Positions 541 to 25,326 of a stretch of DNA of 26,828 bases are shown here, piece by piece; position 1 is the stretch's first letter, and the number at the start of each line of letters is the position of its first letter. The position numbers were made by a program, and so were the translations under genes. The DNA lies in IMG/VR virus record IMGVR_UViG_3300019742_000011, positions 1-26,828 of that record; one strand, 5' to 3'. The DNA is from a virus. The notes below the pieces were generated by a model, which searched no databases, was not told the DNA's origin, and saw nothing but the letters and a program-made list of their open reading frames with translations.

Positions 541-632
541 ATGTTATTATCTTAAATTCGCTTACATATTAAAAAAAAGAAATTAATAAGAAAAACTAAT
601 AAAATACCTTAGTTAATCTTTTTAATTGTTAT

Positions 633-655: not shown

Positions 656-676
656 ATAAGCAAGATTTGGTTTAAA

Positions 677-796
677 TTAGTATCTAATAGTAGCATTTTT
701 AAATATTAATCCACTACAAACAGTACCTGATATATGTTCACCTTTTGTGTTCAAAGCTGTAAAAGTTCCATAATTACTCTCATTTTTTGTACTCAT
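677..796 (-). CDS. small hypothetical protein (39 aa)
   Basis: A 39-residue ORF starts at an ATG with a good ribosome binding site (AAAGGAATAAA, the same spacing as neighbouring genes) and ends with TAA. The product (MSTKNESNYGTFTALN...) has no membrane segment and I do not recognise it. It follows the 18-codon ORF at 823-879 and would be the last gene of the small-gene cluster. The strong binding site is the main evidence that it is real. Confidence 0.6.
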   Translation of the reverse strand: MSTKNESNYGTFTALNTKGEHISGTVCSGLIFKNATIRY

Positions 797-1852: not shown

Positions 1853-1870
1853 TTTAAACTCCTTTTATTT

Positions 1871-1878
1871 TATTTATA
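1871..1878 (-). promoter_or_regulatory. T4-late-type promoter TATAAATA for the GNAT gene
   Basis: An exact TATAAATA on the minus strand, 18 bases before the ATG at 1852, with AAAAGGAG between. A TATAAT overlaps just upstream (1884-1879), and a TTTAAGT (1912-1906) lies further back, so sigma70-like use is also possible. The octamer is common by chance in DNA this A+T-rich; position and downstream gene type are the support. Confidence 0.45.
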
Positions 1879-1934
1879 ATTATATCTAAAGTAGACTAAA
1901 TTTAAACTTAAAATATTCTAATATTAGTTCTATA

Positions 1935-2129
1935 TTAATACAACTTCAATACCTCTTGATATAAATCTTCATACTCTTGAACCTTTTTTGTATCATTCAA
2001 GTCCTCATCAAACATAGTTAATATCATATTAATTGTTGAATCATTTATTCCATTATCTTTTAGTCTAGTTTTGATATACTCTCCACTAGACATATTGTTT
2101 ATTTTTGTTATTATATCGTCAATATTCAT
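1935..2129 (-). CDS. hypothetical protein (64 aa)
   Basis: A small acidic, helical protein (MNIDDIITKINNMSSGEYIK...) of 64 residues. Its ATG overlaps the TGA of the upstream 30-residue ORF (ATGA), and AAGGAATTGGT upstream gives a binding site, so the two are probably translated together. It ends 57 bases before the late-type promoter of the GNAT gene. No known family is recognised. Confidence 0.6.
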   Translation of the reverse strand: MNIDDIITKINNMSSGEYIKTRLKDNGINDSTINMILTMFDEDLNDTKKVQEYEDLYQEVLKLY

Positions 2130-2218
2130 ACCAATTCCTTTAATTCTTCTAATGAATTAATCTCTATTTCTATATCATCTTCATTAAAATAATATAGAAT
2201 ACATTCAAATTTTGTCAT
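2126..2218 (-). CDS. small hypothetical protein (30 aa)
   Basis: Thirty residues, very acidic (MTKFECILYYFNEDDIEIEI, then NSLEELKELV), with a strong binding site (AAAAGGAATAAA) before the ATG. The stop overlaps the next start as ATGA. The binding site and tight coupling on both sides argue for a real gene. Function unknown. Confidence 0.55.
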   Translation of the reverse strand: MTKFECILYYFNEDDIEIEINSLEELKELV

Positions 2219-2233
2219 TTTATTCCTTTTTTA

Positions 2234-2440
2234 TTAAAATACCATTGTTATGAGTTGATGAGCTTGTAGATTATTAACTTTAATACATCTCTCAACTTCT
2301 TCGAGAGATGTAAATTCATAAGCATAACGAATGCTAGTGTTATATCTAAAAAAATCATCTCCATCTAAGTTTGGTGAGCTTATATAACCATCGCAATCCT
2401 CATTATCATAATAATCTTTTAATAGGTAAACTGTTTTCAC
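2234..2440 (-). CDS. hypothetical protein (68 aa), GTG start
   Basis: A 68-residue protein starting at GTG, with AAAGGAATAAAAA upstream and no better ATG. It begins MKTVYLLKDYYDNEDCDGYI and contains a likely helix (TSLEEVERCIK). No membrane segment. It is the first gene after the promoter at 2473-2494 and heads the run of small genes down to about 680. I do not recognise the family. Confidence 0.65.
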   Translation of the reverse strand: MKTVYLLKDYYDNEDCDGYISSPNLDGDDFFRYNTSIRYAYEFTSLEEVERCIKVNNLQAHQLITMVF

Positions 2441-2472
2441 TTTTTATTCCTTTTTTTATTTTAATATTCCTG

Positions 2473-2494
2473 ATTATAGCCAATTAAACTTAAA
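2473..2494 (-). promoter_or_regulatory. early/middle-type promoter, TTTAAGT-N9-TATAAT
   Basis: TTTAAGT (2494-2488) and TATAAT (2478-2473) on the minus strand. The spacer is 9 bases, one less than the other copies of this signal. It lies in the 64-base gap after the polymerase gene and would drive the small genes from 2440 downward. Confidence 0.6.
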
Positions 2495-2504
2495 TCTTTC
2501 TTAA

Positions 2505-5500
2505 TTACCATTCCTCATCATCAATTAAATTCTCTTTTGGTGTAATATCCCAACCCAAAGGATTAATTACCAAGTCTATACCACTTTTAAAACCTTTTTG
2601 ATACATTGTTTCATAGTCTATATAGTCCTTTAGATTTTTATACTCAAAAACTCTTTCATCTTTGAACCCAAATACATTAGAATCAAGTATATTAGGCATC
2701 TTCATGTATACAAATGATATTTTATCACCAGCTTCAATTTCTTTTACTGGAATGTCAAAATCCGATATAAATTTATTATGAACCAATGCCGCTCTTGAAT
2801 TAACGGGTGCTGAAAGAAATTTACTTTTTTCGGGTAATTTCTTTTCAACCCATCTTCTAAATTTAAGAGCTTTTTCGTCCCAAGGATAATCTAAAGAATT
2901 TACCCCAACATTTATACAAATTTCTTTAGGTTCTCTATTCCTAGTTTCTTCTTGAACATCTTTAGAGAATTGTCCAATTTGTTGAAAGTCGGCATTAATA
3001 AGAACTGTTAAAGCATCTTTTAGAACTCCTCTATGATATTTTGGTGTAGATTTACCAATCATTGAAAGACCTGTGACTTTTATTTTATTTTCTTCTCTTT
3101 TATATCTAAGTCCGTCTTTAAATGTGTATCTAAATGCGTGTTTCATAGGGGCAATTGATAAAAAACGGTCAGAAATACATTCTAAATCCTCATTTAATTT
3201 CTCAGGTATATAGGCGTTTTGGGCAAATCCATAATAATCATCTAAAACTTTTCTAGCTTCTGGTAGCGAATATTTATCAACAAAAGCTAAAACAAAATCA
3301 GTTATCTCTTCATCAGTTTTAATATCCTCATAATTTTTACCAAATTTCTTTATTAATATATCATCCATAGATAAAATTTTCGAGTCCGTTTGGATTTGTG
3401 CCACTCTATCAAGATGAGTTAATAATCCATATTTACTCTCTTTAGGCTCAACACCAAGTAATCTATCCATCATCATATTTTGACCTTGGGCTACACAAAG
3501 ATTACCTATTCTAGCACAAGATGTAACAGCTGTGCTAAAATATTCTTTTTGACCAGCAAAAGTATTAGAACCTACACTCAATGAGCCATACATAGCATTA
3601 TTAAGAGTTTTTATACCCCATTGATATATAAAGTTTAGCTCTACTATAGCTTTTTGATATGTATAATCCTCTTCTAAAGAATGATTTTTAATTTTATATC
3701 CATCGAGAACCTTTTCAGCTTCTGTTTCAAGTTTCCTATATATCTTTCTTTGGTCAATCAAATAACCTGCTGATTTACTTAAAATACTTCTTACATCATT
3801 TCTAAAAAACATTCCATTTGGTGTCATAGTTACATTATGTTTTTTTAAAATTGAGTTGATATACTCTCTATTTTCTTTATGGAATATTACATTTTGGGTA
3901 TATTCATAATCATATTTTACTAAATCCTCCGGAAGACAATCTTTAGGATAATAAATTGCATATTTAGCTCTTAAATCTAATAACTCTTTTGGTAAATCTT
4001 TTGGTAGAATAATTGTATCTATCCCTATATTAGCCCATTGTATAGCCGAAGGATATAAAGAACTAAAATCTAAATAATAAGTCCATTTCCACGATTTACT
4101 TGTAGCTCTTGCTATACCACCTGCAAACTTTTGACCTTTTAGTGTTTCACCCTTTTCATTAAATCCTGTATAAAGTTTTTTAAACATTTCTTTTCTATCT
4201 TTATCTAAGTCTTCCATATTAATAGCGTGTTTTAATAAAACATCATCTACATCATTAAACATAGATTTCAATGGTAATACAAAACCCTCATCTAAATATT
4301 TATTATACATAAAAGAAATCCATTGAACTACTGTACCTCTAACATCAGAAATATTCACTCCACAAGTATATGAAATCATTTTAGCTAGTTGAATTAGTTT
4401 AATCTTATTTTCTAATTGGATGAGTATTGTCGTGTCCACTATTCCATAAGTAATAAATAAATCAAACGATAATTCCCTAAATCTTTCTTCTATTTCTAAT
4501 GTATATGTTTCTTTATTTATCAACTTCAAATACAATAAATCCAATTCAGTATCCGGTGTTTTTTTATCATAGATATAGTGGTCGTAATCACCTCTATACC
4601 AAGCTCCAAAATCATCAAAAACATCGTGATTAACTTTGCCCTCCCCTAACCAATGAGTAGCTATTGTATTAAGTGTATTATCAGGTAGAGGTTCTTTAGC
4701 ATATTTTTCGATTAGTACAGCATAATCCTCTAAGAATATCCCTAACCATTCAAAACTGTCATCAAATCCTCCAAATTTATTTTCTTTGGCTTTATGAGTA
4801 ATTATTCCAACGGGCGATAGTTGTTTTACAAAAGAACCTTTTAGGCAATCTGTATTAAACTTCCAATTATTTTCTTTATCTTGAACATATAAATCTTCTC
4901 TTTTATCAAGAACTCTAATAATTCTATTTGTAATATAAGGAAAATCATATCCAAATGAATTAAAACCTACTACTAGAGTTGGATTTCTCTTCTTTAATAA
5001 TTTGAGAAAACCTTTTAACATAAGTTCTTCCGTAGGTGCATTAAAATATTTAATTTTACCATATTCTGATTTATAGTTGGAGTGATTTTTCCATTCTTTA
5101 TTTAATCCAAAAATATAATATTCTTTTGATTTTGAATCGTAGATTTGAATAGAACTAATAATAGCTTTGGCACTTCTACTAGAACCCATAGCTTTCCAAT
5201 CTAATCTTTTATCGTGTTCTGGGTCGTTTAAATCTACCATTGTTTCAATATCTAAATACCAGTTATGAAAATCGTGGTTAGATTCAAGAGGGTTTATAAA
5301 GTTTTCTCTAATATAACAATGTTCTAATGACCTATTGCCATATATTGCTACATCACTATCTTTATACATTTTAATAGAATCTGTATATTCCTTTTCGGTA
5401 TTAAAAGTAACCTCTTTAAGATATTCTTTAGTTAAAGCAGATTTATATTTAGTTTTGTTAGTTGGGTCTTTTATAAAAAAACTTAATTTAGGTTTTACTT

Positions 5501-5588
5501 TATTTATTGAACTTTGCTGAGTTTCTGTATCAAAAGTTCTAGCATAAGTTGTTCTAAAAACTTTAAATATATTTTCGTATTGTATCAT
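2505..5588 (-). CDS. 43: family B DNA polymerase, T4 gp43-like
   Basis: The 1027-residue replicative polymerase, longer than T4 gp43 (898). The 3'-5' exonuclease motifs are intact: Exo I DIET (D113, E115), Exo II NSFGYD (N210-D215), Exo III YGIVD (Y381, D385). Polymerase motif A is DFSSLYPS (D507), and motif B is KTLNNAMYG (K660-G668). Motif C reads QIQTDS (731-736) instead of YGDTDS: the catalytic second Asp (D735) is present but the first is Gln. In RB69 gp43 the second Asp binds the metals and the first does not directly, so activity is plausible. The ATG overlaps the stop of the small membrane protein upstream (ATGA), with an AAAGGAAAT binding site. It sits downstream of helicase and methyltransferase in one operon and would act with the gp44 clamp loader encoded in this window. 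Confidence 0.96.
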   Translation of the reverse strand: MIQYENIFKVFRTTYARTFDTETQQSSINKVKPKLSFFIKDPTNKTKYKSALTKEYLKEVTFNTEKEYTDSIKMYKDSDVAIYGNRSLEHCYIRENFINPLESNHDFHNWYLDIETMVDLNDPEHDKRLDWKAMGSSRSAKAIISSIQIYDSKSKEYYIFGLNKEWKNHSNYKSEYGKIKYFNAPTEELMLKGFLKLLKKRNPTLVVGFNSFGYDFPYITNRIIRVLDKREDLYVQDKENNWKFNTDCLKGSFVKQLSPVGIITHKAKENKFGGFDDSFEWLGIFLEDYAVLIEKYAKEPLPDNTLNTIATHWLGEGKVNHDVFDDFGAWYRGDYDHYIYDKKTPDTELDLLYLKLINKETYTLEIEERFRELSFDLFITYGIVDTTILIQLENKIKLIQLAKMISYTCGVNISDVRGTVVQWISFMYNKYLDEGFVLPLKSMFNDVDDVLLKHAINMEDLDKDRKEMFKKLYTGFNEKGETLKGQKFAGGIARATSKSWKWTYYLDFSSLYPSAIQWANIGIDTIILPKDLPKELLDLRAKYAIYYPKDCLPEDLVKYDYEYTQNVIFHKENREYINSILKKHNVTMTPNGMFFRNDVRSILSKSAGYLIDQRKIYRKLETEAEKVLDGYKIKNHSLEEDYTYQKAIVELNFIYQWGIKTLNNAMYGSLSVGSNTFAGQKEYFSTAVTSCARIGNLCVAQGQNMMMDRLLGVEPKESKYGLLTHLDRVAQIQTDSKILSMDDILIKKFGKNYEDIKTDEEITDFVLAFVDKYSLPEARKVLDDYYGFAQNAYIPEKLNEDLECISDRFLSIAPMKHAFRYTFKDGLRYKREENKIKVTGLSMIGKSTPKYHRGVLKDALTVLINADFQQIGQFSKDVQEETRNREPKEICINVGVNSLDYPWDEKALKFRRWVEKKLPEKSKFLSAPVNSRAALVHNKFISDFDIPVKEIEAGDKISFVYMKMPNILDSNVFGFKDERVFEYKNLKDYIDYETMYQKGFKSGIDLVINPLGWDITPKENLIDDEEW

Positions 5589-5845
5589 TTATTTCCTTTT
5601 ATTTCTATAAGTTCTGATTTATTTATGAACTTTCTATCAACATAAAATTTATTATATTGTTTTATTAGCACTAATTCGTCAGATATTTCCTCTATTATAA
5701 TAACATATCTTGCCCCTCTTATTCCTTTATTAATTAAATATGTTTTATGCCCTTTATATACTATATTTTTATCTATAAAAAATCTAACATCTATAGACAT
5801 ATAATATATTAATGTTAAAATAAACATTAATAATAACCATTCCAT
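5585..5845 (-). CDS. small single-pass membrane protein (86 aa)
   Basis: I choose the ATG at 5845, which follows an ideal AAAGGAG and gives 86 residues; an in-frame TTG ten codons upstream has no binding site. The N-terminus is one hydrophobic segment (residues about 2-17, EWLLLMFILTLIYYMS) followed by a basic/hydrophobic domain of about 65 residues that should lie in the cytoplasm. It lies between helicase and polymerase, its stop overlapping the polymerase start. Function unknown; its place suggests co-expression with replication genes, possibly membrane attachment. Confidence 0.75.
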   Translation of the reverse strand: MEWLLLMFILTLIYYMSIDVRFFIDKNIVYKGHKTYLINKGIRGARYVIIIEEISDELVLIKQYNKFYVDRKFINKSELIEIKGNK

Positions 5846-5855
5846 TATTTCTCCT

Positions 5856-7229
5856 TTAAAAATTAAAACTACCAAAATCTAAATCAGTATTTAAACCATT
5901 ATCAGAAGTTATTCCAATATCATCAATAGATTCAATTTCTTGTTGAGGTATATTATCAGCTAAATCTTTATAATTCATTCTACTAAAATCAACACCAATT
6001 AATAATGATTTTAAGTCACCTGTATATCTATTTTTTACAATTTTGAATATTTGTTGTTTATCTTCTCTCATTTGCTCGGTGGCATTAAGAAAAATAGCCA
6101 CATCAGCAGTCATAGCTATTTTAAGTGACTCCGAAATAGCTTCCATACCAGAATCCATTTGTCCTAAAGAACTTCTATTTCCTTGTGCTGAGGTTATCAT
6201 TTTTATACCTCTATTGCCCTTAGAATCGTATGTCATTTTAGATACTGCGTGTAAATCCTCAGCAACTTTACCTAACATATCATAAGAATTAGAAGTAACC
6301 ACTCCTCTATGAGATACCATTAATCCTAGATAGTCAATAACAATAGCGTCAGGAATAAATCCTTTTTTAGATTTAAGCTCATCAAGTAAAGTTTTTAAGT
6401 TAAGTGTACTAAATGTACCAGCTCCATATTCTTTTATAACCAACTCGCCTATATTATCTTTTATAGAATTCCATTTATTTGTAAGCGTTTGGTTATCTAG
6501 TGTACCTAAATCATTTATAACTATACCCATCAAATTAGCATCAATTCTTTTAGATATTTCTTTTTCAGGCATTTCAAGAGTAATAAATAATACATTATTT
6601 TTTTGTAGTAAAAGACTAGCTGTAGTGAATACTTTAAGGGCTGTTTTGCCACTATGAGTACTCCCAAGGTAAATCACTAAAGAAGCAGGTCTTATTCCTC
6701 CACCCAAAGCTTTATCTACACTAGGAAGCCCTATAGGTGTATATACCTCTTTATTCTTATAATACTCCAATCTCTCATCAATAGAATTATTATAATCCAA
6801 TCCAATAGAAGTTTCAAAAGATACCTTTAAAGAGTCCTCAATCATTCCAATAATAGGGTCAAAAGGTTCACCATTTTTAATCATAGTTGATGACTTAACT
6901 ACTGAATCAATTAACCGAACTTTTTTAATCCAATTTTCAGTTTTATCTAACAAAAAATCCAAATCATCTATCTTATGTTCTTTAACGACTTGCTTATAAT
7001 GTTCAATAATACTTAGTTTAGATTTATTGTTTAGTTTATTAGATTCTTTAATAGCTAAACCAATATCTCTAGGGCTTGGTTTATTTTGATATTCATCTAC
7101 AAAATCTTTTAGAGTATCAAATATAGCAGAATTTTCAGGATTTGAAAATAAATTATTATCAATATGACTATAAGCTTTAGTAAAAAAACCATCCGATGTT
7201 AGTAGACCATTTAATACAACTTCTTCCAT
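5856..7229 (-). CDS. 41: replicative DNA helicase, DnaB/T4 gp41-like
   Basis: A 457-residue hexameric-helicase protein. An N-terminal helical domain (about 1-150) is followed by a RecA-like core: Walker A GSTHSGKT (189-196), the catalytic Glu region FITLEMPE (E219), Walker B IVIDYLGLM (D299) and the ITSAQGNRSS motif (about 345-354). It ends in an acidic tail (LNTDLDFGSFNF). It should unwind duplex DNA 5'-3' at the fork with the gp43-like polymerase. Its ATG has AAGGAGTTAA upstream. It is preceded by methyltransferase 1 and followed within 11 bases by the small membrane protein and polymerase. A weak TTTAAAT...TATTAA at about 7240-7257 may add a promoter. Confidence 0.93.
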   Translation of the reverse strand: MEEVVLNGLLTSDGFFTKAYSHIDNNLFSNPENSAIFDTLKDFVDEYQNKPSPRDIGLAIKESNKLNNKSKLSIIEHYKQVVKEHKIDDLDFLLDKTENWIKKVRLIDSVVKSSTMIKNGEPFDPIIGMIEDSLKVSFETSIGLDYNNSIDERLEYYKNKEVYTPIGLPSVDKALGGGIRPASLVIYLGSTHSGKTALKVFTTASLLLQKNNVLFITLEMPEKEISKRIDANLMGIVINDLGTLDNQTLTNKWNSIKDNIGELVIKEYGAGTFSTLNLKTLLDELKSKKGFIPDAIVIDYLGLMVSHRGVVTSNSYDMLGKVAEDLHAVSKMTYDSKGNRGIKMITSAQGNRSSLGQMDSGMEAISESLKIAMTADVAIFLNATEQMREDKQQIFKIVKNRYTGDLKSLLIGVDFSRMNYKDLADNIPQQEIESIDDIGITSDNGLNTDLDFGSFNF

Positions 7230-7260
7230 TTAACTCCTTTTTGTTTTAATATGATTTTAT

Positions 7261-8046
7261 TTAAAATTCATCCAAATTATCTGTTTCTATTAATTCTTCT
7301 ATCTCTAATGAAAAACCTTTTATTGCTTCATTAACTCTATTTTGAGCTATTTCAAAATAATCTTTATCTAATTCTATACCTATACCTTTTCTATTTAATT
7401 GTTTACAAGCTACTAAAGTTGAACCACTTCCCATAGTAAAATCTAGTACGGTTTCATTTTCGTTTGTATAGGTTTTAATTAAATATTCCATTAATTTAAT
7501 CGGTTTTTGAGTAGGGTGTAGTTTATTTCTTTGCAATATTTTTATATCTTTTATTATACATTTTGGTAAATATTTACTGCCGTCATTACCCTTATTTGTT
7601 TTTTCTTTTGCATAATAATTTTGTTGTTCACCTTTTATTTTACCCTTTATCGGTTTATAACCAACCCCGTACTCATATTGAGGATTATATATAGGAGGTT
7701 TGTTATAAAAAACAATAATATCCTCTGTATTTTTAGCAGGTTGTTTATTCATATTAAAAAAATTACTAGATGAATTCTTCTCCCATATCCAATCGTATCT
7801 AAAATTGTTTATATTGGATACCCTTAATTTAGAGCTAAATGGCTCAACTCCAAATAATATAATAGCTCCATTAGGTTTAATTAATTTATTTAATCTCATC
7901 CACATCTCATCAAAAGGAATTATTGAATCCCAAGAGCAATTTGTAGTTCCGTAAGGAATATCTGTAATTATAGAATCAACATTAATATTCTTTTCAATTA
8001 ATTTATCCATAATTTCTAAACAATCACCATTATATAAATCAATCAT
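7261..8046 (-). CDS. DNA adenine methyltransferase 1 (beta-class)
   Basis: A 261-residue AdoMet-dependent DNA methyltransferase in beta order. Motif IV is near the N-terminus but reads DIPYGT instead of DPPY. A variable middle (about 95-175) is the likely target-recognition region. Then come KLHPTQKP and motif I DFTMGSGST with IGIELDKDYFEIAQNR. No restriction enzyme gene is adjacent, so it is probably solitary, protecting phage DNA or altering recognition sites. It is one of three close paralogues (16705-17469, 23633-24424) with near-identical ends and divergent middles. A TTTAAAC-N10-TATAAT promoter lies just upstream. The P-to-I change in motif IV is unusual; activity should be tested rather than assumed. 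Confidence 0.9.
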   Translation of the reverse strand: MIDLYNGDCLEIMDKLIEKNINVDSIITDIPYGTTNCSWDSIIPFDEMWMRLNKLIKPNGAIILFGVEPFSSKLRVSNINNFRYDWIWEKNSSSNFFNMNKQPAKNTEDIIVFYNKPPIYNPQYEYGVGYKPIKGKIKGEQQNYYAKEKTNKGNDGSKYLPKCIIKDIKILQRNKLHPTQKPIKLMEYLIKTYTNENETVLDFTMGSGSTLVACKQLNRKGIGIELDKDYFEIAQNRVNEAIKGFSLEIEELIETDNLDEF

Positions 8047-8067
8047 TCATTTAACTCCTTTTTATTT

Positions 8068-8090
8068 ATTATATAGAAATTTTGTTTAAA
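8068..8090 (-). promoter_or_regulatory. early/middle-type promoter, TTTAAAC-N10-TATAAT
   Basis: TTTAAAC (8090-8084), a 10-base spacer and TATAAT (8073-8068) on the minus strand, followed by AAAAAGGAG and the ATG of methyltransferase 1 at 8046. It would drive methyltransferase 1, helicase, membrane protein and polymerase as one operon. Confidence 0.75.
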
Positions 8091-8096
8091 ATATTT

Positions 8097-8300
8097 CTAA
8101 ACTACTTCCTCAACCGAACAAATATCAATAATAGCAAAATCACCCTCAAATACTCCATAGACAGCTTGTATATAATCTTCCAAAAATCCCTCCATTAAAT
8201 CTATAATACCTCTCTTTTCAACTTGCTTTTCATCAAATATCATACCTATTTCTGCATAATCATTTAAAACTCTTGCTCTAACTACATATTCTTTTTTCAT
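8097..8300 (-). CDS. hypothetical protein (67 aa)
   Basis: A 67-residue acidic protein (MKKEYVVRARVLNDYAEIGM...) with alternating strand-like and helical stretches and no membrane segment. Its ATG overlaps the stop of the gene at 8297-8530 (ATGA) with AAAGGAAAATAA in front. It is the last gene before the promoter of methyltransferase 1. No family recognised. Confidence 0.65.
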   Translation of the reverse strand: MKKEYVVRARVLNDYAEIGMIFDEKQVEKRGIIDLMEGFLEDYIQAVYGVFEGDFAIIDICSVEEVV

Positions 8301-8530
8301 TTATTTTCCTTTTGTAAATTTTTAATTTTTTGTTCTTTTCTTATAAAGTATCTCTCTAGTTGTTTTACTTCAAATGGTCTTAAATAAAATTGTACTTGAT
8401 AAGTATCATCATTATGTGTAGCTGATATTTTTAATACACCATCTTCCTCTTCGGACACTCTCATTCCATACTTACTATCAAAACCTAACTGTAATGGTTT
8501 ATTATATACAGATTTTAAGTTTACTTCCAT
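8297..8530 (-). CDS. hypothetical protein (77 aa)
   Basis: A 77-residue protein with one of the strongest binding sites in the window (AAGGAGGAAATA). The first 55 residues look like a beta-rich domain (MEVNLKSVYNKPLQLGF..., TYQVQFYLRPFEVKQLERYF) and the C-terminus is a charged helix. Stop and next start overlap. No function assigned. Confidence 0.65.
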   Translation of the reverse strand: MEVNLKSVYNKPLQLGFDSKYGMRVSEEEDGVLKISATHNDDTYQVQFYLRPFEVKQLERYFIRKEQKIKNLQKENK

Positions 8531-8903: not shown

Positions 8904-9857
8904 CTATCTTTCTCCTATACTAACTAATACCTCATCCACAATATACATCATTTTTTTAGTAAATTGTACCAAGGTACTAGGATTATTATCTTTAAGAGTT
9001 ATACCAAATGCTCTAGTATGTCCTCCAACTGTTTTAGTTGATTCTATATCTTTTATTTTAGATATAAACATTTTATGAGCCTCCTCTTGACTTTTTAGAT
9101 TTTTATTCAATCTTACTGATATTCTACCTGTTGAATTAACTATAACATAGGTTTTATAATCAGGAAAATCTAATGTAACAAAATTCATAAATTTATCAGT
9201 AAAAATCAGTAACATATCATTAGAACCTATACTAAAAAGTTTACCTGATTTCTTAATTTTATCCATAGCTTCATTCTTTTTTTCTAAAATCTTTTTATAT
9301 CTTTCTTTATCATTAGCTCGTATTCCAAAAGATTCTTTAAACTTAGAATAAAAATGCTCTTTACCATAATCCCAAAACAGTTCATTATATACAAAACCTA
9401 CTCTAAAATCTTTATTGTCATCTTGCCATAAGTCATAAGAATTTACAGCTTTTAGAAAACGGTTCAAATCATCTTTAATTGTAATATCCTTAAATTTTCT
9501 TAGATATAGATAAGTAAGAGTTGATGCTGAATAACCCTCATTAACCAAAATAGTAAGATTTTTAGACTTATATTTAGATGGAGTAAAAGAATATTGATGA
9601 TGGTCAATGAAGATAAACTTTGAGTTATGTTTTAGAGAAATCTCTTGAAGTTTAGCTAGTTGATATTCCTCAAATTTGAGGTCGGTTATATAGATAGTAT
9701 CAAAGAAATTTCTAACACAATGCTCATCAATAATATCAAGATATTCATCAATTTTAGAATAACCTATACAATAATTTTGGTTTAATCCTATAGTATTATG
9801 AAGAACTATTGAGCAGGTTACACCATCTAAATCATAATGAGTTAGATTAATAATCAT
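8904..9857 (-). CDS. DHH-family phosphoesterase (NrnA/RecJ-like)
   Basis: A 317-residue protein with the DHH superfamily metal ligands in order: HYDLDG (H7, D9, D11), YITDL (D59), IDHH (D85-H87), and a C-terminal DHHA1-type GGH motif (GGHTRAFG, about 278-285). Members hydrolyse phosphodiesters in short oligonucleotides (nanoRNase), cyclic dinucleotides or single-stranded DNA (RecJ). The size is that of NrnA-like enzymes rather than RecJ. In a phage it could recycle oligonucleotides or degrade signalling dinucleotides; the sequence does not decide. Its ATG overlaps the stop of the possible clamp-loader subunit upstream. Confidence 0.88.
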   Translation of the reverse strand: MIINLTHYDLDGVTCSIVLHNTIGLNQNYCIGYSKIDEYLDIIDEHCVRNFFDTIYITDLKFEEYQLAKLQEISLKHNSKFIFIDHHQYSFTPSKYKSKNLTILVNEGYSASTLTYLYLRKFKDITIKDDLNRFLKAVNSYDLWQDDNKDFRVGFVYNELFWDYGKEHFYSKFKESFGIRANDKERYKKILEKKNEAMDKIKKSGKLFSIGSNDMLLIFTDKFMNFVTLDFPDYKTYVIVNSTGRISVRLNKNLKSQEEAHKMFISKIKDIESTKTVGGHTRAFGITLKDNNPSTLVQFTKKMMYIVDEVLVSIGER

Positions 9858-10342
9858 TCAATTCCTTTTATACTTTTAATTTCATTTTTATACCTAGTTG
9901 TAATCTTTCTTAACTCTAATATATTTGGGTCATCTATAAGCCTTTCATCAAATTGAGACCATTTTTCCATAATCCTATATATTCTTTTACCACCTAAAAT
10001 CTCTAAATATTCCTTAGCTGATACTTCACCTACATTAAATTCTTTTTGAATCCATTTAATAACTATATGAATATATTCATCTTTTTTGTCATTAGGTAGT
10101 GATAAATTTTTTGGATATTTTGATGAGTGTTTTAAAAATCTATATTCAGCAACTACAGGAATAGGTGTTTTATATCTATACATTTGAGCCATAGATATAC
10201 AAGCTTTTGGAAGATTACTAAACTTTCTATAGGTAACAAAGGTTTTGAAGTGTTTTTCTATATCCTCATCTTGAATTGACTTTCCATTAGATATTGAGTT
10301 CATAACATCCCAATATCCTACCTTTTTTTCAATCTTTTTCAT
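9854..10342 (-). CDS. possible clamp loader small subunit (gp62-like)
   Basis: A 162-residue protein. I choose the ATG at 10342, four bases after AAGGAG, over the TTG one codon upstream. The layout (YWDVMNSISNGK, then KHFKTFVTYRKFSNLP, AQMYRYKTPIPV, a basic loop, and EYLEILGGKRIYRIMEKW) matches how I remember phage 'DNA polymerase clamp loader subunit A' proteins: a short helix with GK, an F-x-P/T-F-x-x-x-R-x-LS segment, and a C-terminal helical pair. A gp44-like large subunit is encoded at 13153-16264, so a small partner is expected. I have no alignment to prove it. Confidence 0.5.
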   Translation of the reverse strand: MKKIEKKVGYWDVMNSISNGKSIQDEDIEKHFKTFVTYRKFSNLPKACISMAQMYRYKTPIPVVAEYRFLKHSSKYPKNLSLPNDKKDEYIHIVIKWIQKEFNVGEVSAKEYLEILGGKRIYRIMEKWSQFDERLIDDPNILELRKITTRYKNEIKSIKGIE

Positions 10343-10580
10343 CAATCTCCTTATATTCTTCTATTTTATCAAAATTAACTAAGTTTCTACTTGTTAATTT
10401 TGTGCTAAATTCTAACATTTTTATTTCTTTATTCTTTTTTGTGGCTACTATATAACCATCTTGAACTAAGCCTATGGTATAGATATTCTCTATATAATAT
10501 TGATTTAACTGAAACAATCCAACAAAAGCTAAAATTATAGCAATGTATTTATAACCTCTTTTTGTTTTAATTCTATTCAT
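10329..10580 (-). CDS. small single-pass membrane protein (83 aa)
   Basis: Eighty-three residues with a basic N-terminus (MNRIKTKRGYK), one hydrophobic segment (about 11-25, YIAIILAFVGLFQLN) and a periplasmic or cytoplasmic tail of about 55 residues ending in acidic KEIDEKD. By the positive-inside rule the N-terminus should be cytoplasmic. It starts after AAAAAGGATTAAAG, and its 3' end overlaps the possible gp62 gene. It is the first gene after the promoter at 10601-10623. Function unknown. Confidence 0.65.
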   Translation of the reverse strand: MNRIKTKRGYKYIAIILAFVGLFQLNQYYIENIYTIGLVQDGYIVATKKNKEIKMLEFSTKLTSRNLVNFDKIEEYKEIDEKD

Positions 10581-13152: not shown

Positions 13153-13884
13153 TTATACTAAATCAACCTTAGGATTAGCTATAATTTCAACGAACATCGC
13201 GGCTACTGGTATCATTTTATCTCTAGCTGTATGATACATATCTTGATATTTTGCTACAATTAATATAACATTTGGTTGGGATTCTGGTTTAATATATGTA
13301 TCTAAATTTTTAAAAAGATATGTAAAAACAGAACCGGGGTCACTCATATCTAATAATAACTCTCTTACTTTTGAGAAGTTTTTATCTTTAGCAAATTGCA
13401 TAAGTTTAATATATTGAGAGGTTTGATTTAGAATATTATCATCAATAATCAATTCACCTGATGTACAAGTTTTTTGAAGAATTGAAATCATTCCTCTAAT
13501 ACTAGGGTAAAATGTTGTTATAATTGTTTGAACATCCTGCTTATTATATTTAATATTTTCATTATCAAGAATGTATGTTAGTCTATTATACATTTGAATA
13601 CCTATCTCTTTTTTGTTAGATTTAAAGATATAATCAAAATCAATCTCTATAAATCTATTCCTAAGAGGTTCTATAAGTTTTTCTTTATAGTTGGCTGTCA
13701 TTATAAAAGATGTATGTTTAATATGGTCTTCTATTGTACCTCTCGCGGCTTTTTGTGCGTCTGGTGTAAGTCCATCACAATTTGATACAACAAATCCATC
13801 TTTGTGAATAAATGTATGATTTTTATGAACTGTTAGATTTATGACTCTTTTTATACCTTTTGATTTTATTGATTTAATTTTCAT
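13153..13884 (-). CDS. 44: split intein C-fragment + clamp loader large subunit C-half (gp44)
   Basis: A 243-residue protein. Residues 1-35 are an intein C-fragment: RVINLTV...HTFIHKDGFVVSN matches Hint block F and G, ending in the catalytic Asn35. The usual penultimate His is Ser. Cys36 is the +1 nucleophile and starts the C-extein CDGLTPDAQKAARGTIEDH, which continues the Walker B motif of the N-half. SFIMTAN (sensor 1) and EPLRNRFIEIDF (the SRC/arginine-finger region of T4 gp44) follow, then the collar domain. After trans-splicing with the protein at 15482-16264 the product is 316 residues (108 + 208), close to T4 gp44 (319), the ATPase that loads the sliding clamp. It starts at an ATG after AAAGGAAC and overlaps the nuclease gene by 11 bases. 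Confidence 0.9.
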   Translation of the reverse strand: MKIKSIKSKGIKRVINLTVHKNHTFIHKDGFVVSNCDGLTPDAQKAARGTIEDHIKHTSFIMTANYKEKLIEPLRNRFIEIDFDYIFKSNKKEIGIQMYNRLTYILDNENIKYNKQDVQTIITTFYPSIRGMISILQKTCTSGELIIDDNILNQTSQYIKLMQFAKDKNFSKVRELLLDMSDPGSVFTYLFKNLDTYIKPESQPNVILIVAKYQDMYHTARDKMIPVAAMFVEIIANPKVDLV

Positions 13885-15355
13885 TTTGTTCCTTTAGTGT
13901 TTTGTTTAATCCCCAAGATTTTAAAACCTTTAAAACCTTTACGAAATTTACATCTCCTATTTCTTCTCTTAGCTCTTTAATTTTATTATATAATAAAATT
14001 AAATTATTCTTAAAATAGGTTTCCGTAATAAATTCGTATTTTAAATTATTTTGTTCACAATATTCTATTGTATATCTTTCTTTGGCTTTCACTACCTTGT
14101 TATCTATTTGATTGGAAGGCTTTACTTCATATATTATGGAATTTATATTATCATAATAGTCGGTTATATAGTTTTTATATGTATTATCTATTTGGTATGG
14201 TATAATTACGGTCTCATACTCAAATGTAGGATTTAATATATGGAACATAAAATCCCATGTCGAACGATATTTATTATTGTTATAATATATTCTACAATTT
14301 ATATATCCATTTTTTGCTACTATAAAATCCCCACTTAATATCCTATTCTTCATAAATGTAGATTGTCTATCCCTAGCCTCTTGTGGATAATCTCTTGTAT
14401 ATAAATCAGGGTGTTTAAATGCCTCGTAATAACAACTATGTGAGCAAAATATTCTCTTCTTACTTGATAATCTATACATTTCACCACATATTATACAATT
14501 ATTGGTATATAACATATTAAATAGGTCTATATTATTATCTTCAATATATCTTCTTGTTGTATTATTAGAATCTACTAATACACTAAAATCCTTATTGATT
14601 TTATATGTGTATTTTATATTAATTATATCAAAAAGTTTCTCCATATATTCAAAAAGACTCTTTATGGAGGTTTTATTTGTTTTTGTATTCTTTATCAAAA
14701 GGAACAAATTATTAAATATTATATCCTTTTGATATTTTAGTAAACCTCCTTTTGGACTAACGAAATTTAAATCTTTTAATTTACTTGAATCTATTTCTTT
14801 AGGAATAGATTTATTATTTGTTCTATAGCTTACACAAGATTTATCACTACAGTAAATCTTGTGTAATAATATATTTGTGGAGAATATATTATTACAATAT
14901 TCACAAACCCTCTCTTCCGTTAGAGAATTAAAATTAACAACATTTAACTTTATAAAAGTTTTAAGTTTAATGTTACCTATATTGATATTAGAAAATGGCT
15001 CTACTATATTTTTAACCTCAGAATTAAGTCTATAGTATTCTTTATTTAGTAAAACATTTTCATATAAACCATCTATAAATTTATCCAATCTTTTATTAGC
15101 TAATGTTCTATTTACAAACTTTTTTAGTTTACCAACACATATATCATCTCCACAAGTTTCTCTATAACCATCTTTGAAACTTTTAAATTTTGCTTTATTG
15201 TCACAATATTTGCATTTAGTAACGAAAGTTATGTTATTTTCCATAACATAAGCCTCCTCTATACTTTCGTATTGCTTAATTAAATGATTTAATAAACCTC
15301 TATTCGATTGAAACACTCTACCTGTTTTGTTGCATACATAGTCTTTTAATTTCAT
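13874..15355 (-). CDS. putative homing endonuclease between the split-intein gene halves
   Basis: A 493-residue protein with three C4-type zinc-binding motifs: CKYC...C(4)C (48-73), CEYC...C(4)C (151-174) and CIIC...C(3)C (287-308). An N-terminal VCNKTGRVF...GLLNHL resembles a zinc-knuckle/finger. The C-terminal 130 residues carry STWDF (365-369), then ITDYYD (D399) and IIYEVKP (E410, K412), a D-x(10)-E-x-K core like PD-(D/E)XK and Vsr-like homing nucleases. No HNH, GIY-YIG or LAGLIDADG motif is seen. It lies exactly between the halves of the fractured clamp loader gene, as EDxHD-type nucleases do in known fractured phage genes. It probably cuts the uninterrupted gene to spread the cassette. 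It overlaps both neighbouring genes. Confidence 0.75.
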   Translation of the reverse strand: MKLKDYVCNKTGRVFQSNRGLLNHLIKQYESIEEAYVMENNITFVTKCKYCDNKAKFKSFKDGYRETCGDDICVGKLKKFVNRTLANKRLDKFIDGLYENVLLNKEYYRLNSEVKNIVEPFSNINIGNIKLKTFIKLNVVNFNSLTEERVCEYCNNIFSTNILLHKIYCSDKSCVSYRTNNKSIPKEIDSSKLKDLNFVSPKGGLLKYQKDIIFNNLFLLIKNTKTNKTSIKSLFEYMEKLFDIINIKYTYKINKDFSVLVDSNNTTRRYIEDNNIDLFNMLYTNNCIICGEMYRLSSKKRIFCSHSCYYEAFKHPDLYTRDYPQEARDRQSTFMKNRILSGDFIVAKNGYINCRIYYNNNKYRSTWDFMFHILNPTFEYETVIIPYQIDNTYKNYITDYYDNINSIIYEVKPSNQIDNKVVKAKERYTIEYCEQNNLKYEFITETYFKNNLILLYNKIKELREEIGDVNFVKVLKVLKSWGLNKTLKEQNEN

Positions 15356-15485
15356 TGTCGTCTTCTCCGAGATTTTCTTTACGAAATTTATTTATAAGTG
15401 TATTAATAAATTTAGTTACACTCATATTGTTTGTATTTATATAATTAATATTCTCTTTGGTTATCTCAATTCTTATCTTTTTCAT
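15318..15485 (-). CDS. small ribbon-helix-helix-like protein (55 aa) in the intein cassette
   Basis: A 55-residue ORF whose ATG overlaps the TGA of the clamp-loader N-half (ATGA) and which overlaps the nuclease start by 38 bases. It has a strand (KKIRIEITKENINYI), a turn and a helix starting MSVTKFINTLINKFRKE, the pattern of Arc/CopG-type ribbon-helix-helix DNA-binding proteins. The C-terminal segment of the N-half shows a similar pattern. It could repress the cassette or help the nuclease bind DNA. A caution is that part of its 3' end may just read through the nuclease start region. An unusually dense A+T sequence with two chance TATAAATA octamers lies inside it. Confidence 0.6.
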   Translation of the reverse strand: MKKIRIEITKENINYINTNNMSVTKFINTLINKFRKENLGEDDNEIKRLCMQQNR

Positions 15486-16264
15486 TTAACTTCCTCCACA
15501 ACATTCTCTAAAAAACTTCTCAAAAGATGTTCAAGATTAACTCCTGATTTTTCTAATATATCAGCTTGACTTTTTGTAAATCTTACTGTTACATCTTTAT
15601 ATTCTTCCTCTATATCAGCCACATCTACATCAAAACTATCAATAATTTCATACCTATCTAATCCATCTTTTAAAGACCTTTTAGAAATATTTCCATCATT
15701 ATCTTTAACCATAAAAGGATGTGTTTCAGTTAAAGTAATTTTTCTACCATCATCTAATTCAACCTCAAATACCTCTTCATCTTTATATGAAACAACTTCA
15801 CAAGTATCATTCTCTAATTTTTTTGATTTTGTATTAAAAGAAATACAATTATATTTAGTTCCTATTTCGAGTTCTTTTAATTTTAAGGGAATATTTTCTT
15901 TAATTGTACCTATAATAATTTCTTGATTTTCTTCAAGGCACTCGTCAATCACCACTATCTTGGTTAATCCTATATCAGCATAAGCAAACCTTGGAATTTC
16001 CGTATTAAAGCTATCAATACCTCTATCACTACCAGAACCATTTAACCACATTGAATCTGCGTCTAACTCATCAATCATAGCGTGAACTATAGAAGATTTA
16101 CCTATACCGGGTTGAGTTCCACAAATTAAAAGATTTGGGGTAGTTTCATCTTTAATATAAGTCTCGAATTGATTTCTTATCTTTTTTGGTAAAATCATAT
16201 CCTCTAATAATTTTGGTGCATATTTCTCCGGCCATATATATTGTTTATTATCTATTTTTTTCAA
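15482..16264 (-). CDS. 44: clamp loader large subunit N-half (gp44) + split intein N-fragment
   Basis: A 260-residue protein. Residues 1-108 are the N-extein of a gp44-like AAA+ clamp loader: WPEKYAPK, Walker A GTQPGIGKSS (49-58) and Walker B KIVVIDE (102-108). The chain then enters an intein at Cys109. CLEENQEIIIGTIKENIPLK matches Hint block A, and GRKITLTETHPFMV (173-186) matches block B with T179-x-x-H182. The tail (about 222-260, DVTVRFTKSQADILE...LLRSFLENVV) looks like an extra ribbon-helix-helix domain. There is no C-terminal intein block, so splicing must be in trans with 13153-13884. The start is TTG at 16264, four bases after AAAGGAAG, overlapping the NADAR frame; no ATG serves. Confidence 0.92.
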   Translation of the reverse strand: MKKIDNKQYIWPEKYAPKLLEDMILPKKIRNQFETYIKDETTPNLLICGTQPGIGKSSIVHAMIDELDADSMWLNGSGSDRGIDSFNTEIPRFAYADIGLTKIVVIDECLEENQEIIIGTIKENIPLKLKELEIGTKYNCISFNTKSKKLENDTCEVVSYKDEEVFEVELDDGRKITLTETHPFMVKDNDGNISKRSLKDGLDRYEIIDSFDVDVADIEEEYKDVTVRFTKSQADILEKSGVNLEHLLRSFLENVVEEVK

Positions 16265-16393
16265 TTTCTTCCTTTATTTTTTCTAACATTTTGCCTAATT
16301 TATTTTGTCCTACTCCTCTACACACTCCCCAATAAATATCACCCCAATAGTTGTCCTCTACAATAGGTTCTTTTATATCTATCAGTAATTTTT
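16248..16393 (-). pseudogene. C-terminal part of the NADAR gene in a shifted frame
   Basis: In the frame offset from the ORF above it, sequence from the A5 run (T-run on the plus strand at 16389-16393) reads KLLIDIKEPIVEDNYWGDIY, then WGVCRGVGQNKLGKMLEKIK, and ends at TAA 16248-16250. This is the conserved C-terminal NADAR segment (LL-x-T/I...E...D-x-x-WG-x-G...G-x-N-x-LG). Deleting one A from the run joins it to the N-terminal part to give about 137 residues, a normal family length. It overlaps the TTG start of the clamp-loader N-half by 17 bases. Confidence 0.75.
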
Positions 16394-16659
16394 GCAAAAT
16401 GAGGTTTAGAAAATTTTAATTTTAGTGCATTTAACATTACCTTATCTTTTACAATATCCCAATCATCTCTAATATCTATAGTTTTACCATATTTTTTAGA
16501 TTCATAAGGATTCATAGAACTTATTTTAATACGCTCATTTATATCGTTACTTTTAAAAGCTTGATACATATTTTCAGTAGATTTGTATATAATTCCTTTA
16601 TATTCTATTGGACATATTGTCATATTAGACAAAAATGCGTACTCATCTTTAAATCTCAA
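16339..16659 (-). CDS. NADAR-domain protein, N-terminal part (frameshifted gene)
   Basis: The first 83 or so residues are a clear NADAR (YbiA/DUF1768) domain: FLSNM...PIEYKGIIYKSTENMYQAFK, then WDIVKDKVMLNALKLKFSKPHFAK. After the A5 run at 16389-16393 the frame reads an unrelated tail (ITDRYKRTYCRGQLLG) and stops, while the true C-terminus continues in another frame to 16248. NADAR proteins act on ADP-ribose compounds; some remove ADP-ribose from guanine in DNA. In phages this could undo host ADP-ribosylation defence or act in NAD+ metabolism. It starts at TTG after AAAGGAATACC and is first after the promoter at 16678-16700. Confidence 0.8.
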   Translation of the reverse strand: MRFKDEYAFLSNMTICPIEYKGIIYKSTENMYQAFKSNDINERIKISSMNPYESKKYGKTIDIRDDWDIVKDKVMLNALKLKFSKPHFAKITDRYKRTYCRGQLLG

Positions 16660-16704: not shown

Positions 16705-17469
16705 TTAAAATTCATCCAAATCTATTAATTTTTCTATCTCTAATGAAGAGCCTTGTATAGCTTCACCAACTCTATTTTGAGCTATTTCAAAATAATCTTT
16801 ATCTAATTCAATTCCTATACCTTTTCTATTCAAATTTTTACAACCCACTAAAGTTGTTCCACTACCCATAGTAAAATCTAATATAGTTTCATTTTCGTTA
16901 CTATATGTTTTAATTAAGAATTCCATTAGTTTAATCGGTTTTTGTGTTGGATGTATCTTATTTCTATCCCTATTGAATTTTTGGATAGAACAAGGAAATC
17001 TATTTGTATTAGGTTCTCTTTTTGCACTACCTCCCATTATATTAAAACTAGAAACCTTACCTATAGAGCCACTTTTAGATATTTTAAATCCATCCTCCAT
17101 TTGAGGGTTATATGTTGGTTGTTTTCTATAGAATATTGATATATTTTCGTGCTTTTTACCTATTTGTTTTTTCATAAACATAAAATTTGTAGCCTGTTCT
17201 TTCTCCCAAATTATATCATACCTATATATTTCTAAATTAGAAACTCTTAATTGAGAACTAAAAGGTTCACTTCCAAATAATACAATAGCTCCACTAGGTT
17301 TAATCAATTTATTTAATCTTAACCACATTTCATCAAAAGGAATAACTGAATCCCATTTACAAGCTGTAGTTCCATAGGGAGGGTCTGTAATTATAGAATC
17401 AACCTTAATATTATCTTCTATTAATTTATCCATAATTTCTAAACAATCACCATTATATAAATCAATCAT
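16705..17469 (-). CDS. DNA adenine methyltransferase 2 (beta-class)
   Basis: A 254-residue paralogue of methyltransferase 1. The N-terminus through motif IV (DPPYGT, intact here) and PFDEMWLRLNKLIKP is almost the same, as is the C-terminus from KIHPTQKPIKLMEFLI through motif I DFTMGSGTT and IGIELDKDYFEIAQNR. The middle (about 95-165, with FCKxx-free, Gly/Ser-rich sequence) differs strongly and should set a different target. No restriction partner is seen. It lies 11 bases after the gene at 17480-18100, from which it is probably co-transcribed. AAAAGGAGTTAA precedes the ATG, the same leader as methyltransferase 1. Confidence 0.92.
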   Translation of the reverse strand: MIDLYNGDCLEIMDKLIEDNIKVDSIITDPPYGTTACKWDSVIPFDEMWLRLNKLIKPSGAIVLFGSEPFSSQLRVSNLEIYRYDIIWEKEQATNFMFMKKQIGKKHENISIFYRKQPTYNPQMEDGFKISKSGSIGKVSSFNIMGGSAKREPNTNRFPCSIQKFNRDRNKIHPTQKPIKLMEFLIKTYSNENETILDFTMGSGTTLVGCKNLNRKGIGIELDKDYFEIAQNRVGEAIQGSSLEIEKLIDLDEF

Positions 17470-23632: not shown

Positions 23633-24424
23633 TTAAAATTCATCAAAAGAATCCAAATTATCAACATCTTCTAATTTTTCTAAACTAGAACCCAAAATAC
23701 TTTCATCTATTCTATTCTTTGTTATATCAAAATATTTCTTATCTAATTCAATTCCTATAAAGTTTCTATTAAGTTGTTTTGAAGCTATACCAGTTGTTCC
23801 ACTTCCCATTGTAAAATCTAATATAGTTTCCCCCTCATTACTAAAACTGGATATTAGAAATTCCATCAAAGGTATTGGTTTTTGTGTAGGGTGAACTTGG
23901 TCTTGTCTTCTCCATTTTTGAGGAAAGTCTAATATTGTATCAGGATGTCTTGTACCTGTGTTGTTAGTTTCTACACCTTTTATGCCATATTTCATATTAT
24001 TTACTTTATTTGGTGTAAACTTTCTTTTATATGCTTTACCTACTTTCATTTGAGGATTATAGTTAATTCTTTTACCTTTTTGTTCAAATATCATAATATC
24101 CTCGTGTTTTGTTAGAGGCTTATATTTAGCAGTTAAAGGACTTCCACATTTTGACTTTTTCCAAACCATTGTATATTTAAATCCTTTAATATTAGAACCT
24201 ATAAGAAGAGATGTGAATGGTTGAGTGCCAAATAATACAATAGCTCCATTGGGTTTTATTAGTTTATTAAGTCTTTTCCACATTTCGTCAAAAGGAATTA
24301 TAATATCCCAACTGATATTATGAGAGCCAAATGGAGGGTCACATATAATAGCATCTACTTTTACCCCTTTTTTGATTAGTTTATCCATTATTTCTAAGGT
24401 GTCACCATTATGTAGTTCAATCAA
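23633..24424 (-). CDS. DNA adenine methyltransferase 3 (beta-class)
   Basis: A 263-residue third paralogue. Motif IV is DPPFGS. The frame around it (EIMDKLIKKGVKVDAIICDP, IPFDEMWKRLNKLIKP) and the C-terminal HPTQKP and DFTMGSGTTGIASKQL...FIGIELDKKYFDI follow methyltransferases 1 and 2, but it is more diverged from both. The middle differs again (KSKCGSPLTAKYKPLTKHED...), so a different target is expected. The start is TTG 24424 after AAAGGAACAAAT. A promoter of the common type lies upstream (24443-24465) and another at its 3' end. No restriction partner is visible. Confidence 0.9.
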   Translation of the reverse strand: MIELHNGDTLEIMDKLIKKGVKVDAIICDPPFGSHNISWDIIIPFDEMWKRLNKLIKPNGAIVLFGTQPFTSLLIGSNIKGFKYTMVWKKSKCGSPLTAKYKPLTKHEDIMIFEQKGKRINYNPQMKVGKAYKRKFTPNKVNNMKYGIKGVETNNTGTRHPDTILDFPQKWRRQDQVHPTQKPIPLMEFLISSFSNEGETILDFTMGSGTTGIASKQLNRNFIGIELDKKYFDITKNRIDESILGSSLEKLEDVDNLDSFDEF

Positions 24425-24498: not shown

Positions 24499-25326
24499 AT
24501 GAGTAATAGGTTAGAGAGTTTTAGTGACTTTATGGAGAGAGAGTTAGGTTTAAATGAGGTTAAAATCAGTCAAGGTCAAGCTATGAACTATTTTAATATA
24601 ATAAAAAGATATTTAGGTTCAAAAACAATGGATACAGAATTTAAAGGAACTGATACTCTATTAGTTAAGTTTGATAATATAACTTTAGTGTTTAAAGACA
24701 TGTATTTAGCTGGATTTGAAGAGGACGGGGAGTACTATGAGGTTTCGAGAAGTTTAAAATCAGTAAAAGAGTTAAAAAATGTTAGGAATATCGGTAAGTT
24801 CTTTGGTAGGCAAGTAAATAGTATAAAAGAGATAAAAAAACCAAAAGAAGTTATATATTCTTATTTTCCCGAAAGTAAGAAAGAATTAAAAGATTTGGTT
24901 TTAAAATTAATTAAAGAAAGAGGTATTAAAGCTAATTTAAATGATATTGATGTATCAAATGTTACTAATATGAGTAATTTATTTGAGGGTATTGATTTTA
25001 ATGGCGATATTTCTAAATGGAATGTATCTAATGTAAAAGATATGAGAAATATGTTTTCATTTGCTAAGATATTTGACCAAGATTTATCTAAATGGAATGT
25101 ATCTAATGTTACTAATATGAGAGCTATGTTTAAGGGAGGTATCTTCAATCAAGATATTTCTAAATGGAATATATCTAATGTAAAAGATATAAGTTTTATG
25201 TTTAATTATGCTATATTATTTGACCAAGATTTATCTAAATGGAATGTATCTAATGTAGAAGAGATGACAGGTACATTTGAGAACTCTCCTTTAGACGGAA
25301 ATGAACCCAACTGGTATATAGGATAG
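24499..25326 (+). CDS. DUF285/BspA-like repeat protein with capsid-tag-like N-terminus
   Basis: A 275-residue protein on the opposite strand from nearly everything else. The N-terminus (SNRLESFSDFMERELGLNE) resembles a capsid-targeting tag with an L-N-E cut site at residues 17-19. Residues 20-130 form a mixed domain without known motifs. From about 151 there are about 25-residue repeats (DLSKWNVSNVTNMRAMF, F-x-Q-D), the DUF285/TIGR02167 'bacterial surface protein' repeat common in Mycoplasma and BspA-like LRR proteins. Such repeats bind partners or surfaces. The late-type promoter and the tag suggest packaging or a virion role; phage attachment is the alternative. The repeat is also clear in DNA. 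Confidence 0.8.
   Translation: MSNRLESFSDFMERELGLNEVKISQGQAMNYFNIIKRYLGSKTMDTEFKGTDTLLVKFDNITLVFKDMYLAGFEEDGEYYEVSRSLKSVKELKNVRNIGKFFGRQVNSIKEIKKPKEVIYSYFPESKKELKDLVLKLIKERGIKANLNDIDVSNVTNMSNLFEGIDFNGDISKWNVSNVKDMRNMFSFAKIFDQDLSKWNVSNVTNMRAMFKGGIFNQDISKWNISNVKDISFMFNYAILFDQDLSKWNVSNVEEMTGTFENSPLDGNEPNWYIG
24949..25296 (+). repeat. 72-75-bp tandem repeats inside the DUF285 gene
   Basis: The segment TCTAAATGGAATGTATCTAA recurs at 25012, 25087, 25159 (one base changed) and 25234, spacings 75, 72 and 75. The near-identity at DNA level suggests recent duplication or gene conversion among units. It is not a CRISPR array: spacers are coding and similar. Confidence 0.85.

Follow-up and report, generated by a model that had tools for sequence, protein, structure and literature searches.

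The virus contig IMGVR_UViG_3300019742_000011, analysed here over its entire length of 26,828 bp and referred to as the window, covers only part of the genome of its virus, and our subject is a gp44-type clamp-loader ATPase gene that lies in it in two pieces. The upstream open reading frame (ORF), P0001, carries the N-terminal part of gp44 and the N-terminal part of an intein (IntN), and the downstream ORF, P0002, carries the C-terminal part of the intein (IntC) and the rest of gp44, with a gene for a putative homing endonuclease, P0003, between them (Table 1). The ATPase gene is interrupted directly behind the Glu that closes Walker B (VVIDE).

Table 1. Positions of the features in the window and in related loci (L numbers); an arrow marks an intein junction.
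Record	Feature	Position	Strand	Description
Window	P0001, N half	15482-16264	(-)	Coding sequence, 260 amino acids (aa), TTG start; gp44 N-extein, IntN and C-terminal tail
Window	N-extein	15941-16264	(-)	Residues 1-108; Walker A GTQPGIGKSS, end at Walker B KIVVIDE; from hidden Markov model (HMM) scan and alignment
Window	IntN	15626-15940	(-)	Cys1 (Cys109), block B TETH
Window	IntN tail	15482-15625	(-)	About 47 aa, conserved in L015 as well; resembles a ribbon-helix-helix in sequence pattern only
Window	55-aa ORF	15318-15485	(-)	Start overlaps P0001 stop (ATGA), end overlaps nuclease start
Window	P0003, nuclease	13874-15355	(-)	Coding sequence, 493 aa; CxxC pairs (zinc motif), C-terminal TnsA-like PD-(D/E)XK domain; putative homing endonuclease
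Window	Nuclease catalytic domain	13976-14323	(-)	Residues 345-460 approximately; high pLDDT, fold matches
Window	P0002, C half	13153-13884	(-)	Coding sequence, 243 aa; IntC and gp44 C-extein
Window	IntC	13780-13884	(-)	35 aa; block F VINLTVHKNHTF (HTF), block G GFVVSN
Window	C-extein	13156-13779	(-)	208 aa; starts CDGLTPDAQ (+1 Cys)
Window	gp62-like small clamp-loader subunit	9854-10345	(-)	phrog_225, 9.6e-13
L129	Clamp loader	4911-5864		Intact gp44, 317 aa; GLGKTS, VVIDEADG
L128	Clamp loader	4697-6143		Split at Walker A only (GLGK↓C... and ...GVIHHN↓TS); Walker B empty
L128	Zinc-motif ORF	3720-4667		Just upstream of the clamp loader
L015	Clamp loader	5390-7382		Three ORFs; a split intein at Walker A and another at Walker B; nuclease absent
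L050	Intein in clamp loader	6286-7745		Split, with nuclease
L055	Intein in clamp loader	277-702		Contiguous, without nuclease
L023	CobS-like ATPase	1781-4929		Split intein and nuclease
L026	CobS-like ATPase	5384-8530		Split intein and nuclease
L118, L119, L120, L121, L122, L123, L124, L100, L102	Fractured TerL, UvsW, PhoH-like and helicase genes			TnsA-like nuclease between the parts; DE↓C at the junctions that were read
Window	NADAR-like ORF	16265-16659		Apparent frame break
Window	DNA methyltransferase-like genes	7261-8046, 16705-17469, 23633-24424		Three paralogs
Window	ORF with BspA-like repeats	24499-25326	(+)	

In profile searches, residues 3-113 of P0001 matched the phrog_168 family 'clamp loader' (2.2e-22), and the same protein matched TIGR01445 (intein_Nterm) with 27.4 bits, the cut-off being 24.5. 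P0002 matched TIGR01443 (intein_Cterm; 20.4 bits, cut-off 15.6) and the profile positions 104-308 of phrog_168 (8.4e-41), as well as PF21328 (Gp44_lid) at 0.0016, which is under the Pfam cut-off. The AlphaFold2 (AF2) model of P0001, with a mean predicted local distance difference test score (pLDDT) of 68, matches T4 gp44 (3u61, 8uk9); its match to the Npu DnaE split intein (4qfq) is weaker. Regarding the intein itself, Cys1 and TxxH are on one polypeptide and blocks F and G, the terminal Asn and the +1 Cys are on the second, which is the set of residues of a class-1 split intein.

The deduced splice product has 316 aa and 36.4 kDa, with the junction VVIDE↓CDGLT and the predicted junction peptide IVVIDECDGLTPDAQK. 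It matches phrog_168 in a single continuous stretch (residues 2-308, 1.3e-70) and therefore the junction is collinear with gp44; residues 4-308 also align with T4 gp44 (3u5z, 2e-24). Walker A, Walker B, the lid, the collar and a full-length family match are all found in it, as in the gp44/RFC-type AAA+ clamp loaders, and there are no frame breaks inside the parts of the locus. The initial annotation of this DNA had proposed a split intein at Walker B of a clamp-loader extein, with a gp44-like ligated product of 316 residues. Its coordinates and its reading of both halves proved correct, since the intein ends are above the curated cut-offs and the halves matched the intein and gp44 families against which it had suggested comparing them.

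The gene between the halves had been described as a 493-residue zinc-motif protein resembling PD-(D/E)XK nucleases, and this description agrees with our results. P0003 matched PF08722 (the Tn7 TnsA-like nuclease domain) with 27.4 bits, above the Pfam cut-off of 26.5 (5.1e-6), and the endonuclease family phrog_15427 at 6e-20. The modelled nuclease domain (pLDDT approximately 85-97) matches TnsA with a Z of 10.2 over 130 residues, and lower matches of the same model are Vsr (Z 7.0) and the homing endonuclease I-Bth0305I (3r3p, Z 6.5). E381, D399 and E410xK412 are kept in the relatives, so that both the catalytic residues and the fold are those of a PD-(D/E)XK TnsA-like nuclease. The conserved core is E...D...ExK, EDxHD being the active-site motif of Vsr-like homing endonucleases such as I-Bth0305I.

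The stop of P0003 overlaps the start of P0002 by 11 nt. The earlier statement that all the genes overlap needs the 55-aa ORF, which had not been listed, to be included; without it, P0001 and the nuclease gene are about 126 bp apart. It is uncertain whether this ORF is a real gene. By its sequence it is possibly a small ribbon-helix-helix protein, and a family search with it gave no significant match. The search for ribbon-helix-helix families with the IntN tail and the 55-aa ORF gave a RelB/ParD match at E=0.0095, below the cut-off, and the AF2 model of the tail has two helices at low confidence; this identity was confirmed for neither of them by the PDB profile search and the AF2 model. The small ORF and the tail might be a regulator of the nuclease or the remnant of a regulator gene.

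In order to find relatives, IMG/VR was scanned with profiles of both halves, and an HMM scan was then run over all the fetched loci. Together these gave 25 distinct alleles of the clamp loader in which an intein lies exactly at [D/E]E↓C[D/E]. Sixteen of them are split with a nuclease gene (the window, L002, L003, L005, L011, L016, L029, L030, L035, L037, L038, L040, L042, L043, L050 and L096), two are split without it (L015 and L019, the latter verified), six are contiguous inteins (L017, L020, L021/L024, L034, L045 and L055) and one is a truncated allele (L027). All 25 alleles are metagenomic in origin, one of them being a GenBank phage record without annotation. The allele of L035 is near-identical in the contigs of nine metagenomes, and selection tests within it were uninformative because it shows too little variation. 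Two pattern-based scans of bacterial and archaeal genomes, able to reach close relatives only, found no relatives, and a scan with the window IntN by itself gave zero matches.

Besides the window, at least 16 distinct fractured clamp-loader alleles, one of which is truncated, have their break at this codon junction; this recurrence means that the arrangement of the window is not due to chance, and that the insertion site is widespread with an allelic series and not a one-off. It also bears on the possibility that the locus is an assembly or sequencing artefact, as might be thought of a single metagenomic contig in which the frame of the adjacent NADAR-like ORF is apparently broken. That explanation is already largely refuted and its probability is practically negligible, given that at least 15 further complete alleles have this layout independently of the window, that one allele recurs across the nine metagenomes mentioned above and that the layout is also present in the GenBank record LR756500.1. 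The break in the NADAR-like ORF is at a GGGG run, with the continuation DIYWGVCRGVGQNKLGKMLEKIKEEIEKNR in another frame, and it is either a sequencing error or a real frameshift.

All the scored alleles retain Cys1, the terminal Asn and the +1 Cys. This retention of the splicing residues speaks against a non-covalent two-chain enzyme that works without splicing, as does the genes-in-pieces enzyme NrdA of phage Aeh1. In such an enzyme about 105 and about 35 intein residues would remain within the active site at Walker B, and contiguous inteins occupy the same site. Phage enzymes that are split without splicing are documented (PMC2988022), but we consider this very unlikely for the clamp loader.

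Regarding mobility, the closest comparison is that of L050 with L055, whose inteins are 96.5-97.6% identical at the DNA level whereas the flanking exteins are 73-76% identical. The chief difference between these two loci is the nuclease gene, which lies exactly between IntN and IntC, and the pair L034/L035 shows the same contrast at lower identity. As judged from these identities, the pair points to a recent homing or transfer event plus gain or loss of the nuclease. On the intein tree, split and contiguous forms must have interchanged at least five times, and the nuclease must have been gained or lost at least seven times. According to the comparison with the relatives, the nuclease gene is gained and lost at the boundary of IntN and IntC: where it is present the intein is split, and where it is absent there is a contiguous mini-intein or the intein is still split.

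The same split intein and nuclease also occur in a CobS-like AAA ATPase gene (phrog_249) in L023 and L026, at the Walker B sequence LLLDE↓CDLAS, and in both loci an intact clamp loader lies close to the invaded gene. As the CobS pair is one clade, the intein tree does not tell whether the transfer went from the clamp loader to the CobS-like gene or the other way. Furthermore, the same nuclease family is found in fractured TerL, UvsW and PhoH-like genes of cultured phages with the Walker B junction DE↓C, and the hosts of the whole set in Table 1 are cultured T4-like, Campylobacter and Lak phages as well as metagenomic contigs. In Thanatos-2 and TB34 the nuclease is fused to a short IntN in one ORF. 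Since the nuclease family is found at Walker B of CobS-like, UvsW, TerL and PhoH-like genes, the codons of Walker B in P-loop ATPases are the target that recurs. The preference of inteins for ATPase motifs is established; the tie between the Walker B insertion and the TnsA-like nuclease family is an observation of this analysis. By analogy, the fractured genes of cultured T4-like phages suggest that such an arrangement is compatible with viability.

The window shares its neighbouring genes with three loci, L129, L128 and L015, in which the clamp loader is found in other states (Table 1). When the intein parts are removed, L128 and L015 have exactly 317 residues each and align without gaps to the intact protein of L129 with 71-73% identity, and the window product has 50% identity to it with 3 gap positions and exteins alignable over the full length. 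In this syntenic group the residue after DE is Ala in the alleles with an empty Walker B and Cys in the alleles invaded there; outside the group, empty alleles with DECD were found with a search pattern that favoured DECD. A zinc-motif ORF, possibly GIY-YIG-like, lies just upstream of the clamp loader of L128.

L015 is the closest intein-bearing relative of the window. Its Walker A intein has an IntN of about 22 aa, which is an atypical split, and its Walker B intein is split in the usual way. The clamp-loader ATPase of this phage thus probably consists of three polypeptides that need two different split inteins, where L129 is intact, L128 is split at Walker A only and the window has the Walker B intein plus the nuclease. 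To our knowledge, no natural protein joined from three pieces via two split inteins is known, and this three-piece relative, which the initial annotation did not include, is the most novel part of the analysis. An RBS-like (ribosome-binding-site-like) sequence is seen ahead of the second ORF of L015.

L015 and L019 retain the split intein though they have no nuclease, and the extra IntN tail is conserved in the window and L015. Both facts would fit a split intein that is kept for the benefit of the phage, for instance by delaying clamp-loader activation after translation or by acting as a redox switch on it, and is not purely selfish. The patchy presence, the transfer signatures and the empty alleles in close relatives fit a selfish element instead, and we regard such a benefit, which is compatible with the mechanism proposed below, as rather unlikely.

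Considering all these results, the locus is very probably a fractured gp44 clamp-loader gene with a class-1-type split intein at Walker B and a TnsA-like nuclease gene in between; the steps of splicing and cleavage are those that we infer. The overlapping genes would allow translational coupling, the two halves would be made separately and IntN and IntC would associate. Class-1 trans-splicing would then join VVIDE to CDGLT to give the 316-aa gp44. Before splicing the ATPase site would be incomplete in both halves, with Walker A on the first and the lid and the arginine-finger region on the second. The spliced gp44 would assemble with the gp62-like subunit, its likely partner, whose gene in the window suggests that the spliced protein joins a phage-encoded loader. 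Clamp-loader alleles without the intein would be cut by the nuclease in or close to the Walker B sequence, which would drive copying of the element into them. Judging from the gene arrangement, the phage probably needs the post-translational joining of an essential replication motor, and its survival may depend on trans-splicing, as the initial annotation had also supposed.

Several points weigh against this interpretation. The IntC ends with VVSN↓C, so that the penultimate residue is Ser instead of the usual His in the window and in L015, and in some other alleles this stretch is TSN or TGN. The penultimate His of inteins is common but not universal, and inteins without it are known; its absence is a caveat on the splicing rate and no disqualifier. 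The N-terminal and middle parts of P0003 were modelled at low confidence, and its putative homing role is drawn from its position and its relatives. A search of 50,697 GenBank phage records for a split clamp loader found none in a cultured phage, the 462-kb LR756500.1 being the only record with one. Finally, the window is only a 26.8-kb fragment and leaves room for a second gp44 elsewhere in the genome.

This last point, together with the missing penultimate His, would also favour a decayed locus, that is, a dead split gene whose work is done by an intact clamp loader encoded at some other place in the genome; the initial annotation had named an intact gp44 as a result that would speak against its own reading. 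We found no second clamp loader in the window, nor any strong clamp-loader match beyond the two halves in LR756500.1 and its near-identical 429-kb IMG/VR counterpart, and to this extent the annotation stands, although only for the fragment and these relatives. The next AAA match in LR756500.1 (L125) resembles by eye a Bcs1/FtsH-type AAA protein and was rejected as a clamp loader. Nor does the locus itself look decayed, as its frames are unbroken and its exteins align with the intact L129 protein over their full length. A dead gene is therefore hardly probable, and the fractured gene joined by trans-splicing is the explanation that we prefer.

Among the other genes of the window, the three paralogous DNA methyltransferase-like genes (MIDLYNGDCLEIMDKL...) include one near the fractured gene, and the ORF with BspA-like repeats (MSNLFEGIDFNGDISKWNVSNV) is apparently the sole long plus-strand gene.

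What makes these loci of interest is that a replication motor, probably indispensable to the phage, appears to be assembled only by trans-splicing, and that both motifs of the ATPase site serve as insertion points in this lineage. The allelic series (intact, split at Walker A, split at Walker B with nuclease, split twice and contiguous) makes long-standing questions testable, namely by what route homing nucleases make split inteins out of contiguous ones, whether the split form outlasts the loss of the nuclease and whether it delays replication. In addition, it provides many new candidate split-intein pairs, some of them possibly orthogonal within one protein.

Fractured genes with a split intein and a free-standing endonuclease gene between the halves were reportedly described by Dassa and colleagues in 2009, mainly in phages and in DNA synthesis enzymes; eight enzyme types and a Vsr-like nuclease family are said to have been named. 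The window has the same arrangement of collinear host-gene parts with a free-standing endonuclease gene between the IntN and IntC ORFs. However, the gene invaded here is that of the gp44 clamp loader, with the insertion at Walker B, its nuclease is TnsA-like and not clearly Vsr-like, and it has in addition the IntN tail and the small ORF. Contiguous inteins in cellular relatives of the clamp loader (RFC, DnaX) are known, and among solved structures the profile of the clamp-loader mini-inteins matches the Spl DnaX mini-intein best (7cfv, 7.9e-14); that intein and the archaeal RFC inteins are contiguous and cellular, whereas the intein of the window is split and belongs to a phage. We found no split intein in gp44 or another clamp loader in the literature, the eight-enzyme list of 2009 being outside this comparison, so that an earlier mention is possible. 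The window is a further case of the known class of fractured genes, in a host gene for which no earlier report was found.

Other phage replisome genes are also broken by split inteins, as is PolB in MIJ3 and in Aes123/CP21 (PMC6892783, PMC11923092, PMC12707363). MIJ3 has a nuclease gene between the halves, as in the window, and the halves of Aes123 PolB1 trans-splice in vitro; nevertheless, the host gene is PolB instead of the clamp loader, the MIJ3 nuclease is of the HNH type and the Aes inteins have no cysteines. The metagenomic split inteins gp41-1, gp41-8, NrdJ-1 and IMPDH-1 have an IntN of about 90-110 aa, an IntC of about 35-50 aa and Cys1 (PMC11766414). They are like the window intein in these sizes, in Cys1 and in their metagenomic source, but their +1 residue is Ser and not Cys, and the sequence similarity is at profile level only. 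The cultured phages Thanatos-2, TG1, TB34, SEA1, PM2 and WX1 (T4-like and Campylobacter phages) share with the window both the nuclease family and the Walker B junction DE↓C, and they differ from it in their TerL, UvsW and PhoH-like host genes and in a divergent and sometimes far shorter IntN.

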